Positions 1 to 33,536 of a DNA stretch of 33,553 bases are shown here, piece by piece. Source of the DNA: Terriglobia bacterium (lineage in GTDB: Bacteria; Acidobacteriota; Terriglobia; 20CM-2-55-15). Every line of letters begins with the position of its first letter. Position 1 is the first letter of the stretch. Under the pieces are notes generated by a model, which searched no databases, had not been told where the DNA came from, and was given only the letters and a program-made list of their open reading frames with translations. The position numbers were made by a program, and so were the translations under genes. The DNA is taken from the NCBI GenBank assembly GCA_036496425.1, contig DASXLG010000379.1:1-33553 (forward strand). Reading direction: 5' to 3'.

Positions 1-752
1 GCCCCCTCGGATCGTGTCTCGGCGGCCGGCAGGACGTTCATGAAGACGCGATCGATCCATTCGGCGGGAAGGTCGCGGACGGAATTGCGCAGGCGATCCT
101 GCCACCAGTCCGAGATCGGGGCGAGATCGTCCTTGGAATAGCGGTACTCGGTTATCTGGTATGAATTCTTGGCGTAGATCACCACATCGATCGGGTAATC
201 CACGTCGGCCGCGCTGATGCGGGTGGAATCAAACGACAGGCATCCGACTTTCAGCGCAAACCGCAAGCTGTCCTGGTACTGCAGGGTGCGATCGAGAACC
301 GGCTTACCGTACGCGGCCGAACCGATAATCTGGTATGGCGTTCCCTTTCCGACCTCCACCCAGTTCCCTTCCGGATACACCATGTAGAGCAGATGCTCGC
401 GATCGTGCGCCAGCTGTCCTCCGACCAGCGCGTGAAAGTCGAACTTGAATCCGCTCTCGACCAGTGCAGGCCGGTCTTCACGCGAAACCTGCCGCACATG
501 CCCGGCGATGGCATTCACGGCTTTGAACAGCCGGTCGAAGGGCTCGGAACGGGAGGCCATTTCCTCTTCGAAGTACGTCAGGGTCTTGTCGCGCACCGAA
601 CGCAAGCCGGACGTCATCATGAACAGAGAACCTTGCCCCTGCTGGTAAATCGAAAGCTTTTTGGCGCTGATGATCTCGGTCCCCGAGGTCAGGCGCGAAT
701 CGGCAATTCCAACGATTCCTTCCTGGACGATCATGCCCAGACAATATGTCAT
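1..752 (-). CDS. Anbu (ancestral beta-subunit) proteasome-like peptidase, 3' end cut by window edge
   Basis: About 250 codons are read from ATG 752 to the left edge with no stop; the family is usually about 240-260 residues, so little is missing. The protein begins [12 protein letters not shown] and continues GIADSRLTSG. After Met removal Thr1 would be the N-terminal nucleophile of Ntn hydrolases. Asp17 lies in ADSR, and lysines 30-31 sit close to the position of the proteasome's Lys33. These features fit COG3484 (Anbu). The start codon overlaps the alpha-E stop (ATGA, 749-752), with GGGAG just upstream, so translation is probably coupled. Anbu genes are known to sit with ATP-grasp, alpha-E and transglutaminase genes; a transglutaminase gene may lie beyond the left edge. 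The likely role is cytosolic cleavage of a peptide or amide product made by the neighbours. The physiological substrate is unknown. Confidence 0.88.
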   Translation of the reverse strand, partial: MTYCLGMIVQEGIVGIADSRLTSGTEIISAKKLSIYQQGQGSLFMMTSGLRSVRDKTLTYFEEEMASRSEPFDRLFKAVNAIAGHVRQVSREDRPALVESGFKFDFHALVGGQLAHDREHLLYMVYPEGNWVEVGKGTPYQIIGSAAYGKPVLDRTLQYQDSLRFALKVGCLSFDSTRISAADVDYPIDVVIYAKNSYQITEYRYSKDDLAPISDWWQDRLRNSVRDLPAEWIDRVFMNVLPAAETRSEG

Positions 753-1738
753 GCCTGTCTCCCGCCGGGATTCTGCGCCATAGCGGGAACAGGCTGCAAG
801 GCAAAAAACGCATTGTGGATGGCTTCGCCCGTCAGGTTGAGCCGGATCTGAATGTCGTCGAGAAACTCATGCAGGCCGCCGCTGATGATTTCGCGCACCT
901 GAACATAATTCATTTCGGCGCACAGCCTTCCAAGTTGCTGCTCGGCCGGATTGCCGAAGGTTCCCATCGGCGTGCCGGAAATGATATGCAGCGAAGCCTC
1001 GGCCGAAACGACACAGCGGTGAATCGCGCGGGGAAACTCCAGGTCCAGCACCAAAAACTCGACGATGCGATCGGGCGAAATCTGCTGATAGCGCTTTCGA
1101 TACATCTCGAAAGCGCTCGTGGATCGCAGGACCGCCGCCCACATGATGTCGTCATAGGGCGTTCCAATGGCATCCAGCGAAGGCAGGAGGAGGTAATACT
1201 TCGTGTCGAGGATCCGCGATGTTTTATCGGCCCGCTCGATCAGGCGGCCGAGCCGGGAGAAGTGCCAGCCCTCGTTATGGGACATCGTCGCGTAGAGCGT
1301 GCCCAGAAAAAGATGGCTCGCATTAATGACCTCCGAAAAAAAATCCTGGCTCGGCTCGAAGCCGCTCGCCGCGGACTGAGCGCCGGCCTGAGTTGCGAAG
1401 TAGAAGCGGTTGATCTGCTCCCACGTTTCCAGGGTGATGTATTGGCGCGCGATGCGCGCATTCTCGCGGGCGGCCGCTATTGAAGAGAGGATCGAGTTTG
1501 GATTCCGCGTATCGAACGTCAGGAAGTGAATGACATTGCGCTTCGATGCGCGCTCGTAATGCTCGGCGAAGAGCGTTTCATCTCCGGTCGTACTGATCAG
1601 CGGACTCCATTGTTCCTGATATCCTCCCGGAAGATCCAGGCTCAGCCAGGTATTGACATCGATAAAGCGCGCGACGTTTTCGGCCCGCTCGACGTAGCGT
1701 GCCATCCAGTAAAGACAATTCGCCAGCCGGCTCAGCAT
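749..1738 (-). CDS. Alpha-E domain protein (COG2307)
   Basis: This is a 329-residue, largely helical protein. The N-terminus [20 protein letters not shown] is the family hallmark, which is why the start is placed at 1738 and not at the in-frame ATG four codons upstream (1750). The family has no demonstrated catalytic activity. It is almost always encoded beside a circularly permuted ATP-grasp protein and is thought to act with it in a peptide-bond-forming (amidoligase) system. The 5' end overlaps the ATP-grasp gene by 7 bases and the 3' end overlaps the Anbu gene by 4, so the three form one translationally coupled operon. No transmembrane segment or signal peptide is seen. Family assignment is firm; function is inferred from context. 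Confidence 0.9.
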
Positions 1739-3165
1739 GAAAGAACCCACGTATCTTTGCTGCCGCCGCCCTGGGAAGAGTTCACCACCAGAGAACCTTT
1801 CTTCAAAGCCACGCGCGTAAGTCCTCCTGGAAGAACAAATGTGTCCGTTCCATAAAGGACATAGGGCCGCAGATCCACGTGACGGCCTTCGAAGTGATCG
1901 TCCACAATCACGGGGACCCGCGAGAGCGCCAGCGTCGGCTGGGCGATATAGTTGCGCGGATCGGCCGTGATGGCGTGCTTGAATTTCTCGCGCTGCTCTG
2001 CAGTCGAATGCGGACCGACGAGCATGCCGTAACCTCCCGACTCATTCGCCGCTTTCACGACAAACTTGTCGAGATTCTCGAGGACGTGCTTGCGCTCGGC
2101 GTCATCCCAGCACACATAGGTCGGCACGTTGGGGAGAATCGGATCTTCGCCGAGGTAATACTTAATGATCTTCGGAACGTAGGCATAAACGACCTTGTCG
2201 TCCGCGATACCTGTCCCCGGCGCATTGGCAAGAGCCACGCGGCCGGCGCGGTAGACGTCCATGATGCCGGCGACACCCAGCATGGAATCCGGCCGGAAGG
2301 TGTGCGGATCGAGGAAATCGTCGTCAATCCGGCGATAGATCACGTCCACCCGTTCGAACCCCTTCGTCGTCCGCATCATGACGTAACCGTTCATGACGAC
2401 AAGGTCGCGGCCCTCGACCAGCTCAATTCCCATGAACTTTGCGAGAAAAGCGTGCTCAAAGTACGCCGAATTGTAGATACCGGGAGTCAGCAGAGCCACC
2501 GTCGGAGACGTGATGCCCTGCGGAGCAATGTCCTGAAGGGTCTTCAAAAGATGGCTCGGATAATCTCCGACGGGACGTACGTTACTGTGGTCGAAAATCT
2601 TCGGAAACGTCCGCTTCATGATCTCGCGATTCTGCAGAACGTACGAAACACCGGACGGACAACGCAGGTTGTCTTCAAGGACGTAGTACTTTCCGTCCTT
2701 GTCGCGGACAAGATCGGTGCCCGTAATATGACACCACGCACCTTGTGGCGGCTTCAATCCGATGCAGGCCTGGCGAAACGACTTCGCCGTGAGGATCAGG
2801 TCCGGCGGAATCGCGCCGTCCTTCAGGATCTTCTGCTCGCCGTAGATATCACTTATAAAAATGTTCAACGCATGGACGCGCTGGCGCAGTCCCTGGTCGA
2901 TTTGAGACCATTCGCCGGCCGTAATGATCCGTGGAATGATGTCGAACGGAAAGATTTTCTCGGTGCCGGCCTGGTCGCCGTAAACATTAAACGTGATACC
3001 CATCCGGAACAATGCCTGTTCCGCCGCCTGCTGGTAGCGGCGGAGTTCGGCATCGCCTACGGACGTGATGCGCTCGAACAGCAGACGGGCGTACGACCGG
3101 GGACTTCCGTCTCCGTCGAACATTTCGTCATGAAAGCCTTCCGTCGAATATCCTTCAAACAGCAT
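1732..3165 (-). CDS. Circularly permuted type 2 ATP-grasp protein (COG2308)
   Basis: This 477-residue protein spans the full family length and ends in the typical [10 protein letters not shown]-like tail. Diagnostic blocks are [20 protein letters not shown] (about residues 155-174), [18 protein letters not shown] in the middle and [11 protein letters not shown] near residue 370, the last carrying the glycine-rich ATP-grasp loop. The fold is expected to activate a carboxylate as an acyl phosphate and ligate an amine; the natural substrates are unknown. It is the first gene of the ATP-grasp/alpha-E/Anbu operon. No strong ribosome binding site precedes ATG 3165, but the N-terminus [16 protein letters not shown] matches the family, so this start is preferred. 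Confidence 0.92.
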
Positions 3166-18107: not shown

Positions 18108-18171
18108 AGGCCCTGGAAATTCAGGTGCACCTTTGTGGCCAACGCTTCTGAGCAAAGAGCGGGAAGGAACC

Positions 18172-18250
18172 ATTGCACCATTGCATCATTGGAAGTTTTT
18201 GCAGTTCTAAATTTGAAATGCAGAAACGTCTGATGATGCAATGGTGCGAT
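18172..18250. repeat. 79-bp fold-back element, copy 1
   Basis: The ends are 18-bp near-perfect inverted repeats: ATTGCACCATTGCATCAT (18172-18189) and ATGATGCAATGGTGCGAT (18233-18250). The interior is also partly self-complementary, and short GGAAGGAA/TTCCTTTCC flanks extend the palindrome. The reverse complement of 30963-31041 aligns over the whole length with only a few mismatches. It lies in the gap after the ABC permease gene. No coding capacity. Confidence 0.85.
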
Positions 18251-18267
18251 GATTCCTTTCCGAGGCG

Positions 18268-28040: not shown

Positions 28041-28142
28041 ACGAAGTCGTAAGATCAGGTGCGGCAGCCTACAAAGTTGTGGCGGCCGGCCGGCACAGAC
28101 GCTGATTCGGACACCGTAAGTCCAGGGCACTGCAGAGGCAGA

Positions 28143-29753
28143 ATGTTCTGGGCTTTTTTTATTGGCCGTTTTTGTTTTGGTATCGAAAAAGTGGCTACGC
28201 ATTTGTCAGAAAAAGGATTAAACGGGCATCGGGCGGATGCAGTCCAGCAGCTGGCGGTGCTTGTCGAAATGGGTCAGATCCTGAGCGGCGAACTGACGCC
28301 CAGGGTTGCTTTCGAAAAAGTACTGGAGATCCTCAAGCAACGCCATGGCGTCGTGCGCGGAGCCGTGACGTTGCTCGATGCGAAGAGCCAGGAAATCCGT
28401 GTCGAAGTATCCACCGGTCTGACCGATGCCGGACGCTTCGCGCGCTACCGCCTGGGCGAAGGAATCACCGGCCGTGTGGTCGAAACCGGCAAGCCGATCG
28501 TCGTTCCGAAAGTCAGCCGTGAGCCCATGTTCCTGAACCGCGCCGCCAAGCGTGATTTTCATAAGCAGGAAATCACGTACATGTGCGTTCCCATCGTCCT
28601 CAAAGGCAAAACCGTGGGAGCGCTCGGCCTCGATCTGAAGTTCAGACAGGATCGCGACTACGACTCGGAGTTGAAGTGGGTCGGCCTGGTCGCACTGATG
28701 ATGGCGCAGGCCATCAAGGCCGAACACCTCGTCGATGACGAACGAAGGCGGCTGATGGATGAGAACACGCACCTTCTCGAAGAGCTCAAGGAACGCTACG
28801 ATTTCTCCAATATCATCGGCACGGCCGGACCGATGCGGCAGGTCTACGAACAGATTGCGCAGGTCGCCCGCACCAACACGACCGTGCTGATTCGCGGCGA
28901 ATCCGGCACCGGCAAGGAATTGATCGCGCACGCGATCCACTACAATTCGCCACGGGCGCAGAAGCCGTTCATCAAGGTGAATTGCGCCGCGCTTCCCGAT
29001 GCACTCATCGAATCGGAGCTGTTCGGATACGAAAAGGGCGCCTTCACCGGCGCTCACGGCCTGAAAAAGGGCCGCTTCGAGCTGGCCGAGGGTGGAACGC
29101 TGTTTCTCGACGAGATCGGCGACATGAATCTCACGACCCAGTCGAAGCTGCTTCGCGTCCTGCAGGAAAAGGAATTCGAACGGCTCGGCGGAACCCAGAC
29201 CGTCCGCACCAACGTGCGCCTGCTGACCGGCACCAACAAGGACCTGGAAACCGCGATGGCCGAGGGAAAGTTCCGCGAGGACCTGTACTACCGCCTGAAT
29301 GTCTTCGCGATCTTTGTTCCTCCACTGCGCGACCGCAAAGCCGATCTGCTGCTCCTGTCGGATCACTTCCTGCAGAAATACTCGAAAGAACACAGCAAGG
29401 ACATCCGGCGCATCTCGACGCCTGCCATCGATATGTTGACCGCTTATCATTGGCCCGGCAACGTGCGCGAACTGGAGAATGTGATCGAACGCGCCATCCT
29501 GGTATGTGACGGCAACGTCGTCCACGGTCATCATCTGCCGCCGACGCTGCAAACCGCCCAGGCGTCCGGGACGATCACCTCGCTGTCGCTGTCCGAGGCC
29601 ATCAGCGCGTACGAGAAAGACATCGTGCTCGACGCGCTCAAGACCACGCGCGGCAACCGCGCGAAAGCCGCGCGCCTCCTGGGCACCACCGAACGCATCA
29701 TCAATTACAAAGTCCGCAAGTACGAGATCGACAGCGAAAGATTCAGAAATTAG
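28143..29753 (+). CDS. GAF-AAA-HTH sigma-54-dependent transcriptional activator (NifA/NtrC-like)
   Basis: Domains in order: an N-terminal GAF sensor ([20 protein letters not shown] to [10 protein letters not shown]), an AAA+ ATPase and a Fis-type HTH. The ATPase carries Walker A GESGTGKE (~252), the sigma-54 contact loop GAFTGA (~299), Walker [12 protein letters not shown] and the arginine finger region [12 protein letters not shown]. The C-terminus [30 protein letters not shown] is the HTH. It opens promoters of sigma-54 RNA polymerase by ATP hydrolysis. About 536 residues from ATG 28143 (GAGG upstream); GTG 28191 is an alternative. The domain plan matches NifA, but no nif genes are seen. 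Its position next to P-II and amtB suggests nitrogen control. The ligand of the GAF domain is unknown. Confidence 0.93.
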
Positions 29754-30948: not shown

Positions 30949-30962
30949 GAGGAAGGGAACCT

Positions 30963-31041
30963 ATTGCTCCATTGCATCATTAGAGGTTTCTGCATTTTAA
31001 ATTTAGAACTGCAAAAACGTCCAATGATGCAATGGTGCAAT
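30963..31041. repeat. 79-bp fold-back element, copy 2 (inverted)
   Basis: Arms ATTGCTCCATTGCATCAT (30963-30980) and ATGATGCAATGGTGCAAT (31024-31041) enclose a partly self-complementary interior. Its reverse complement matches copy 1. The purine/pyrimidine flanks GGAGGAAGGGA and CCCCTTCCCTCC extend the fold to about 30948-31057, including the end of the TPR stop codon region. It sits between the convergent TPR and XRE genes and could terminate both. Confidence 0.85.
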
Positions 31042-31059
31042 AAATCCCCTTCCCTCCTT

Positions 31060-31345: not shown

Positions 31346-31675
31346 GTGAAACTGATTCAGTGCATCATCCAGCCGTACAAACTTGAAGAAGTCATCGACG
31401 CGCTTCAGGCTGTGGCGCCCGGCATGACGCTTTCGGAGGCGAAAGGACACGGCCATCAGCGCGGGCAGCCTCTGGTTTACCGCGGACACGAATACGAAGT
31501 TTCGCTGCTGCCGAAAGTCATGATCGAGATCGTGGTGGAAGACAACCGGGTCGACGACGTCGTCAAAGTCGTTATTGAAAAAGCCCGCACCGGACACATC
31601 GGCGACGGGAGGATATTTATCAGCCGGATCGAGGAAAGCTACCACATCCGGAGCGGATTCATGGCGCTGGATTAG
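31346..31675 (+). CDS. glnB: P-II nitrogen regulatory protein (GlnB/GlnK)
   Basis: From GTG 31346 the product is 109 residues: (M)KLIQCIIQPYKLEEVIDALQ and onward. The T-loop reads GHGHQRGQPLVYRGHEYEVS, with Tyr50 equivalent to the uridylylated Tyr51 of E. coli GlnB. LPKVMIEIVVED and the family signature ARTGHIGDGRIFI follow, covering the ATP/2-oxoglutarate site. The protein senses 2-oxoglutarate and energy charge, and its partner AmtB lies 265 bases downstream, as in glnK-amtB operons. The longer upstream frame belongs to the antisense of the XRE gene. Whether to call it glnB or glnK cannot be decided from sequence; context favours glnK-like function. No Shine-Dalgarno sequence is visible. 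Confidence 0.93.
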   Translation: MKLIQCIIQPYKLEEVIDALQAVAPGMTLSEAKGHGHQRGQPLVYRGHEYEVSLLPKVMIEIVVEDNRVDDVVKVVIEKARTGHIGDGRIFISRIEESYHIRSGFMALD

Positions 31676-31731
31676 GACAAGATTGTCATGGCATTCGTAC
31701 ATAATTGCTGTGACATTAAGAAATAGTTGTC

Positions 31732-31760
31732 TTGACATTGTGAATACATTGCTCTAAAAC
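31732..31760 (+). promoter_or_regulatory. Sigma-70-like promoter for amtB
   Basis: TTGACA (31732-31737), a 17-base spacer and TAAAAC (31755-31760). It lies about 180 bases before the amtB start and upstream of both leader terminators. No GG-N10-GC sigma-54 promoter was found in this gap. Confidence 0.45.
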
Positions 31761-31806
31761 ATATCTCACGCGACACGACGAAGTGCGCCCGAGTTGACAC
31801 CGAGGT

Positions 31807-31845
31807 CTTCAATTCCGCAGTAGGGATTGGAGGCTTTTTGTTTTT
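31807..31845 (+). terminator. First intrinsic terminator in the amtB leader
   Basis: CTTCAATTCC (31807-31816) pairs with GGGATTGGAG (31823-31832), all ten positions including two G-U pairs, followed by GC and TTTTTGTTTTT. It lies downstream of the predicted promoter and may be an attenuator, or it may end P-II transcripts. Confidence 0.65.
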
Positions 31846-31861
31846 ATAAGCCCGGACAAAG

Positions 31862-31907
31862 AAGTCCATGGACTGCCCTGGAGGCAGCTCATGGACTTTT
31901 TTTATTT
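31862..31907 (+). terminator. Second intrinsic terminator in the amtB leader
   Basis: AAGTCCATG (31862-31870) pairs perfectly with CATGGACTT (31890-31898), with an inner CTGCC/GGCAG stem, then a T-rich tail (TTTTTATTTT). It lies 34 bases before the amtB start codon. GGAC/GTCC (31854-31857 with 31864-31867) could form a competing hairpin that uses part of the 5' arm. Confidence 0.75.
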
Positions 31908-31940
31908 TGCTCGAATTTTAAGGTAACTGTGAGGAGCCCA

Positions 31941-33536
31941 ATGAAAAAACTATCTCTGTCATCGAAAATCAAACGATTGCGCAGCCGGCTGCGCGACCCC
32001 GAGTGGCGCAGATACGGAACGCTTTTAATGACTGGAAAACTGCTGGGAATGGCCCTGTTGCTGACGGCCTTTGTGTTCATGAACCCGAGCCTTTTCGGCT
32101 TCGGCGCTCATGCTCAAGCGGCGGACCCGGTGTTGAAGGGTAATGACATCGTCAACCCGATCAATACAGTCTGGACCCTGGTCGCGGCGTTTCTTGTGTT
32201 CGGCATGCAGGTTGGTTTCACGATGCTCGAAGCCGGCTTCTGCCGGTCGCGCGAGACCGTCAACGTACTGATGGAGTGCATCATCGACACCTGTCTCTGC
32301 GGCCTTTTGTTTTATGCCTGGGGTTTCGCATTCATGTTCAGCCACGGCAACGGATTCATCGGCTATCACTGGTTCTTCCTGAAGGACGCGCCGGCGACCT
32401 ATGAAACCACGGGCGTGGCGTTCCTTGCGGTCTGGATCTTCCAGTTCGCATTTGCGGATACCTGCTCGACGATCACATCGGGCTCGATGATCGGCCGCAC
32501 CGCCTTCGTCGGCGACCTCCTCTACAGCGTCGCGGTGACCGGTTTTATCTATCCGATCATCGGACACTGGACGTGGGGGCCGGATGGTTTCCTCGCGACG
32601 ATGGGCAGCGCCGACAACTGGCTCCCGTGGGTCGGAACGAGTTTCCATGACTTTGCGGGTTCAACGGTCGTCCATACGATCGGCGGATTCATCTCACTGG
32701 CCGGCGCGATTGTTCTCGGTCCGCGCCTTGGCCGCAGATTCAAACGCGACGGCGGCGGCCCCATGATGCCGCATGATTTGACGATTGCCGCTTGCGGCGG
32801 CCTTCTGTTGTGGTTCGGCTGGTATGGGTTCAATCCGGGAAGCACGCTGTCCGCGATGGATTTCGTCGGTATCGGCCGCGTCGCGGCGAATACCACATTG
32901 GCGGCTTGCGCCGCCGCGTTCACTGCGATGGCCGCAGCGTATGCAATGAGCAAAAAATGGGACGTGGGTTATACCGTTAACGGGTTCCTCGCCGGACTGG
33001 TCGCGATCACCTGCCCCTGCTATTGGGTGAGCCCGACCGGGTCGATACTTCTGGGTGGAATCGCAGGTTTCGTCGTGGTCGCCGGCGTTGAGCTTCTCGA
33101 GTACCTGCGGATCGACGATCCGATCGGCGCGTGGCCTGTGCATGGTTTGTGCGGCGTCTGGGGCACGCTGTCTCTGGGCTTGTTCGCAGCCGGAAAGTAC
33201 GGCGCCTCCGGCCCGTTCGGCCCGGACAACAGCACTCCGTTGACCGGCCTCTTTTACGGCGGCGGAACGCAGCTTCTGGTGGCTCAGACCATCGGTAGCG
33301 GTGTGACCACGATTGCAACTTTCGGAGTTGCGCTAATCGTGATGTATGCGGTGAACGCATTCGGTCTGTTGCGCATCGATGCTGAAGGCGAAACATACGG
33401 AATGGATTTGACCGAGCACGGAATCCCGGCTTATCCGGAGTATGTCATCTCCGCTGCGGGCAGACCGCACGGCATGGTTCACTTCGATACGGCCGCGGAA
33501 ACGGTTGCCGAACCTGTGGGAAAGGCAGCACGATAA
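31941..33536 (+). CDS. amtB: Ammonium transporter AmtB
   Basis: The 531-residue protein starts at ATG 31941 with GAGGAG 5-10 bases upstream; the longer frame to 31827 would cross both terminators. A basic N-terminal segment and a hydrophobic signal-like helix precede NTVWTLVAAFLVFGMQVGFT and the EAGFCRSRETVNVLM block. The twin pore histidines lie in FHDFAGSTVVHTIGG and PVHGLCGVWGTL. The tail MDLTEHGIPAYPEY is the conserved cytosolic end that P-II contacts. Eleven membrane segments are expected in each monomer of the trimer. It moves ammonium into the cell and is gated by P-II, encoded immediately upstream. Confidence 0.95.
   Translation: MKKLSLSSKIKRLRSRLRDPEWRRYGTLLMTGKLLGMALLLTAFVFMNPSLFGFGAHAQAADPVLKGNDIVNPINTVWTLVAAFLVFGMQVGFTMLEAGFCRSRETVNVLMECIIDTCLCGLLFYAWGFAFMFSHGNGFIGYHWFFLKDAPATYETTGVAFLAVWIFQFAFADTCSTITSGSMIGRTAFVGDLLYSVAVTGFIYPIIGHWTWGPDGFLATMGSADNWLPWVGTSFHDFAGSTVVHTIGGFISLAGAIVLGPRLGRRFKRDGGGPMMPHDLTIAACGGLLLWFGWYGFNPGSTLSAMDFVGIGRVAANTTLAACAAAFTAMAAAYAMSKKWDVGYTVNGFLAGLVAITCPCYWVSPTGSILLGGIAGFVVVAGVELLEYLRIDDPIGAWPVHGLCGVWGTLSLGLFAAGKYGASGPFGPDNSTPLTGLFYGGGTQLLVAQTIGSGVTTIATFGVALIVMYAVNAFGLLRIDAEGETYGMDLTEHGIPAYPEYVISAAGRPHGMVHFDTAAETVAEPVGKAAR

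Follow-up and report, generated by a model that had tools for sequence, protein, structure and literature searches.

The amtB leader and its hairpins

The window, by which we mean the whole stretch of 33,553 nucleotides analysed here, closes with two nitrogen genes on the forward strand. The upstream neighbour, at 31346-31675 and with a GTG start, encodes a P-II family nitrogen regulator (Pfam PF00543, E 8.2e-24; the best NCBIfam P-II model reaches E 1.7e-30, which lies under the curated cut-offs of those models). It is separated by 265 nt from amtB at 31941-33536, whose product is an ammonium transporter (Pfam PF00909, E 2.3e-112; TIGR00836, 398 bits with a cut-off of 343) and which we take to be the regulated gene. 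A GAF-type sigma-54 activator is encoded at 28059-29753, and a palindromic element with 47-nt arms that are 83% complementary (30951-31053) adjoins the P-II gene. This element has a second copy in the window at 18162-18261 and 80 matches in the genome, from a search in which 40 of 125 first-look candidates were scored; many of the matches are on both strands, so that they correspond roughly to at least 40 places, and the element resembles a small mobile or REP/MITE-type repeat.

Within the intergenic region, direct reading bears out the promoter that the initial annotation had proposed, a sigma-70-type TTGACA-17-TAAAAC on the forward strand at 31732-31760 (hexamers at 31732-31737 and 31755-31760), which is missing from an automatic promoter scan because the rule of that scan demands a T at the end of the second hexamer. 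The same annotation had described two hairpin-plus-T-tract terminators before the amtB start and a GGAC/GTCC hairpin able to compete with the second of them, and all three structures are found on the forward strand. Terminator 1 (31802-31846), a 15-bp stem (31802-31816/31823-31837) followed by a T tract, is recovered both by scan and by folding. Terminator 2 (31858-31903), which has an outer stem GTCCATG/CATGGAC at 31864-31870/31890-31896, an inner stem CTGCC/GGCAG and a run of seven T, is recovered by folding, its absence from the automatic scan list being probably due to the interruption of its stem. The competing hairpin, here called P2b, is GGAC-AAAGAA-GTCC at 31854-31867, and its 3' arm is shared with the 5' arm of terminator 2. 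To these we add two hairpins on the same strand that had not been described: P2, GAC-ACCGAG-GTC at 31796-31807, the 3' side of which lies within the 5' arm of terminator 1, so that P2 stands to terminator 1 as P2b stands to terminator 2; and P1, GCG-A-CAC GACGAA GTG-CGC at 31770-31788, with its core at 31774-31785. A ribosome-binding site, GAGGAG, can be read directly at 31931-31936.

This anatomy resembles that of the RNAs on which ANTAR proteins act as antiterminators. As set out in the portions consulted of PMC3369931, PMC8934654, PMC8164766 and PMC7496416, such leaders carry hexaloops with A at loop position 1 (A1) and G at position 4 (G4), and their second hairpin, P2, is exclusive with a terminator; the hairpins have at least 3 bp and hexanucleotide loops, with a linker of 2-25 nt between them (the linker range is that of PMC8164766). 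In the window P1 and P2 have 3-bp cores, hexaloops and a linker of 10 nt, and the 3' arm of P2 (31805-31807) lies inside the terminator 1 arm (31802-31816), which makes the two mutually exclusive. G4 is present in the loops of P1, P2 and P2b, and A1 in those of P2 (ACCGAG) and P2b (AAAGAA), while P1 (GACGAA) has a G at position 1, as do the glnA leader of the same genome (GATGCC) and the P-II leader of a relative, G002. Single point variation in the loops is allowed in the part of PMC8164766 used here, and an A-to-U change at loop position 1 led to reduced induction in the experiments of PMC3369931. With this G1 and with a bulge in the outer stem of its P1, the window element is a weaker member of its kind (24.4 bits with the second covariance model described below). 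Before terminator 2 stands the single hexaloop of P2b, in the window and in its G002 orthologue, rather than a hexaloop pair; five other amtB leaders carry a pair at this place.

On the two strands of the window together there is one hexaloop pair whose second hairpin is overlapped by a terminator. This rule was satisfied in none of 5000 sequences simulated from a first-order model of the 265-nt intergenic region and in 9 of 100 simulated 33.5-kb sequences scanned on one strand. Since the rule was written after the sequence had been seen, we rely more on the comparison with relatives, and covariance-model searches that leave the window out are independent of the rule having been fitted to it.

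Conservation and recurrence of the element

The relative G002 has an AmtB orthologue that is 87% identical over residues 1-521 and is likewise preceded by a two-terminator leader, behind a different upstream gene. P1 there reads CAC-AACGTT-GTG, P2 reads GAC-GACGAA-GTC and, at the matching place, P2b reads GGAC-AACGCT-GTCC; by eye, the outer stem of terminator 2 is kept and the inner stem differs (AGCC/GGCT). DNA similarity alone is a weak guide, as among 60 other genomes only G001 fell below E 0.001 (8.8e-6), and the match of the G002 second terminator, which is real by its position, scored E 0.135.

Leaders picked by hand from scan and model matches were aligned in three sets, one of 12 elements from relatives and one of 27 elements, both with the window left out, and one of 22 leaders, window included, for the analysis of terminator 1 and P2. 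Among the leaders kept out of the alignments is one before amtB in G003, in which P1 has a mismatch, and a G004 glnA leader with a 7-base P2 loop was kept out of the sets of 22 and 27. The AC...GT closing pairs are common to all 12 elements of the first set, and G4 is invariant in both loops of this set and of the 27. P1 shows covariation, with 13 double-change cells in the smaller set (8 of them in the outer pairs) and 29 in the larger (19 of them in the outer three pairs), counts that were reached in none of 500 shuffles in either case; the outer pairs carry independent weight because the first selection scan had demanded the three inner pairs only. The stem of terminator 1, whose pairing was no selection rule for the leaders, has 97.3% of its cells paired across the 22 leaders and contains 22 double-change cells (0 of 500 shuffles). 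The GAC/GTC of P2 is paired in 22 of 22 rows and is invariant, and therefore covariation is uninformative on P2, either way. At the matching place before P1, finally, a promoter with at least 9 of 12 matches is found in 25 of 28 leaders picked by us, the window leader among them, against 0.66 expected from shuffles.

A covariance model built from the 12 elements (R1) locates 31770-31810 in the window at 22.4 bits, the next best match standing at 12.7. At E 0.1 this model has matches in 11 of 11 genomes of the family, including four that contributed no training sequence (G003, G005, G008 and G010, the last being close to G007); in the own genome at this threshold the window element is not among the matches. 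Among those inspected of the 43 matches, two (G007:C23 and G010:C79) have no T tract and were set aside. When the search is extended to the class, at E 0.01 and under the tighter filtering applied to large sets, R1 has matches in 10 of 11 family genomes and in 4 of 140 other genomes of the class, and of the four matches outside the family none has a T5 tract in the printed stretch and three lie inside a long same-strand reading frame. This class-wide search is a control for the family's version of the element and is no evidence that other families lack ANTAR leaders. As for other amtB leaders, in which the initial annotation had suggested a covariance search, those of relatives in the family carry the element too; 80 named AmtB loci from elsewhere, at least five of which have under 150 bases upstream of the match, gave no match to R1 better than E 0.13. 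An Acidobacteriales record (L035, 2782-2821) has, some 200 bases before amtB, a P1-like CAC-AACGGC-GTG at E 0.16, with no clear P2 or terminator by eye.

In the 6.2-Mb own genome a second model (R2), built from 27 elements and again with the window left out, has 25 matches up to an E value of 5, with the window leader at rank 7 (E 0.0046). In each of the eight best matches (E 0.0061 or better) P2 is overlapped by a terminator. Besides the window leader they comprise the leaders of an amino-acid permease gene (C295; Pfam), of a CitMHS-type transporter gene (C80; assigned by Pfam CitMHS_2 in place of a reading by eye as an antiporter), of a GAF-alpha-glucan phosphorylase gene (C298; domain models), of a second amtB (C80, behind two small frames), of two unnamed genes (C368 and C285, which had been thought porin-like and have no Pfam match) and, at rank 8, of glnA, the last having been spotted upstream of its gene before the R2 search. 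Three of the eight (C295, the C80 transporter and C298) were training sequences and five were not. Ranks 9, 10, 12 and 13 (C246, C159, C202 and C352) lack a T-tract terminator and were dropped as chance matches; rank 11 is the antisense of a leader. Among relatives the element also stands before P-II genes (G002 and G005 by Pfam, G006 by eye), before glnA (G003 by TIGR00653, G004 and G005 by like start sequences) and before permease genes, an amidase-type gene (G008), an ATP-grasp gene (G006) and a beta-barrel porin gene (G005).

Individual leaders of this collection have features of their own. That of the second amtB (L139) departs from the strict pair, having three hexaloops, AACGAA, AACGAA and TACGAA, before a single terminator. 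In the C298 locus (L204) the frame 551-3100, which lies behind an ANTAR-type leader, fuses an N-terminal GAF domain to the alpha-glucan phosphorylase, a hint that the breakdown of glycogen may respond to this signal as well. A 60-aa protein is encoded behind an ANTAR leader at L210 (596-775) and L175, in G001 and G003; the G001 copy has no Pfam match.

Candidate regulators, alternatives and a possible mechanism

All 11 family genomes, and 84 of the 151 genomes of the class, have matches to the ANTAR domain (PF03861). The own genome encodes two GAF-GAF-ANTAR proteins above the Pfam cut-off, on contigs C340 and C250. Of the other 10 family genomes, 9 have a relative of the C340 type, at 67-92% identity, and none was found in G003 (81% complete); the C250 type was found in G003, in G008 and partly in G002. 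When the C340 protein is aligned to EutV and NasR, 7 of 11 named EutV RNA-contact residues are identical, the tyrosine that stacks on G4 among them, one is changed from K to R and three differ; the contact residues are those of PMC8934654, with a two-residue numbering offset that we inferred. Either protein could serve amtB, and its distribution makes that of C340 the first choice. A search for ANTAR leaders near the ANTAR genes gave none better than E 0.11. The C250 gene (L160; C250:17500-26000) is followed directly by two DUF1989 (UAAP-type) genes and a urea carboxylase gene, with a transporter-like gene nearby by eye, and is a candidate for an ANTAR regulator inside a urea/guanidine-type operon.

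Could such a leader work without an ANTAR protein? Tandem terminators with a competing hairpin would also fit direct sensing of a small molecule by the leader RNA, or a response to ribosome stalling on a leader peptide. We regard this as very unlikely: Rfam gives no match in the window at the gathering threshold, and with relaxed settings (E up to 10, 31676-31960) it gives eight sub-threshold matches far under the curated scores; what is conserved is a pair of very small hairpins, constrained at positions in their loops, rather than a larger ligand pocket; in the leaders for which P1 is listed, only 54-78 nt separate it from the first T tract; and P1 begins a few bases past the promoter, too close for a leader peptide to fit in between. 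That a different antiterminator of similar style is at work is the least probable of the alternatives. The BglG/SacY, TRAP and HutP proteins likewise act on or through terminator hairpins, but two hexaloop hairpins with an invariant G4 are the signature of ANTAR proteins (PMC3369931 and PMC8934654, in the portions consulted, for both statements), and the genome has ANTAR proteins.

Only slightly less remote is the notion that both hairpins are ordinary terminators, one of them ending the P-II transcript, with amtB starting downstream or being unregulated. In its favour, P1 starts 94 nt past the P-II stop codon and intergenic terminators are common. However, the promoter lies upstream of both terminators in a position that is kept in 25 of the 28 picked leaders, the element also occurs before unrelated operons and before an amtB orthologue that has another gene upstream of it, and ordinary termination offers no reason for P1 and P2 being kept. 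An amtB transcription start downstream of 31907 is for similar reasons unlikely, since the spacing from promoter to P1 is kept in those same 25 leaders and since the G002 amtB orthologue retains this leader behind a frame that is, by eye, not P-II. From sequence analysis we predict with high confidence that the amtB leader is an ANTAR-controlled transcription antiterminator leader. The idea in the initial annotation, that amtB transcription is attenuated by a leader RNA or an RNA-binding protein, is thereby supported and the protein class can be named; its added remark that such control is separate from P-II gating seems reasonable.

How might an ANTAR protein open this leader? Transcription would start a few nucleotides upstream of P1. 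Left to itself, the RNA would fold terminator 1, and a polymerase passing it would meet terminator 2, so that little amtB would be made. Under nitrogen shortage an ANTAR protein, most probably that of C340 (or its C250 paralogue), would dimerise and grip the hexaloops of P1 and P2, and P2, being held shut, would keep its GTC out of terminator 1. Terminator 2 would be prevented in the same way by an additional contact at P2b, letting the polymerase read into amtB, and read-through transcripts from the P-II gene would meet the same gate. The free fold favours both terminators (-60.7 kcal/mol), while a fold constrained to form P1 and P2 is 6.3 kcal/mol less favourable and one with P2b as well loses another 10.6, and therefore the open state should need the help of a protein. 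EutV binds isolated hexaloops (PMC8934654), so that either single-site action at P2b or a hand-over from P1/P2 would be possible. Against both possibilities, a single stem-loop bound less well than two (PMC3369931) and a longer linker abolished antitermination (PMC3369931, PMC8934654), all as given in the portions consulted; in the window P2 and P2b are separated by 46 nt.

More tentatively, and with rather less than even confidence in the whole, a GAF-GAF-ANTAR protein may be the master regulator of ammonium assimilation in this family, acting only after initiation at sigma-70-like promoters on glnA, amtB, P-II, permease and porin leaders, and may be passed from the hexaloop pair to the lone third hexaloop, defeating two serial terminators.

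Significance and relation to known systems

With the ANTAR assignment, a general guess at attenuation becomes a named, testable mechanism, and eight leaders of one genome are connected through a shared RNA signal with two candidate regulators. If this is true, GAF-GAF-ANTAR proteins underlie nitrogen control in the lineage by way of RNA antitermination. Terminator 2, with its lone hexaloop, is moreover a natural test of whether one hexaloop is enough or is reached by a dimer bound upstream.

This kind of leader is already known, since ammonium transporters and P-II are among the ANTAR targets predicted in other bacteria, according to the target list in PMC3369931. What appears new to us is an ammonium-assimilation regulon with GAF-GAF-ANTAR candidates, and a second terminator with one hexaloop. 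No title or abstract opening among the ANTAR papers surveyed mentions this lineage or an amtB regulator of the GAF-ANTAR type, and the passages of Ramesh 2012 on which we draw state that no GAF-domain ANTAR protein had been characterised.

The eut RNAs of E. faecalis, controlled by EutV, are alike in having two hexaloop mini-hairpins and a terminator overlapping the second, with G4 in both and A1 in P2, and the 10-nt linker between P1 and P2 in the window falls within the 5-12 nt of eut linkers given in PMC3369931. In contrast to eut, the window has a G1 in P1 and a second terminator with one hexaloop, and its candidates are GAF-GAF-ANTAR proteins, whereas eut relies on a receiver-ANTAR protein and a kinase. 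The NasR/nasF system of Klebsiella oxytoca shares the combination of a one-component sensor-ANTAR protein with a nitrogen gene; NasR, however, has a NIT nitrate sensor, while our candidates have two GAF domains and the target is ammonium uptake. Closest in their targets are the regulons predicted by Ramesh 2012, which include P-II, ammonium transporter and glutamine synthase genes (for example in Desulfotomaculum acetoxidans) and in which, as described there, 13 elements fall in six units, so that several elements serve a unit. With these regulons, as far as the cited portions describe them, the window shares target genes and RNA logic, and from them it differs in the type of regulator, in the loop variant and in the single hexaloop of the second terminator.
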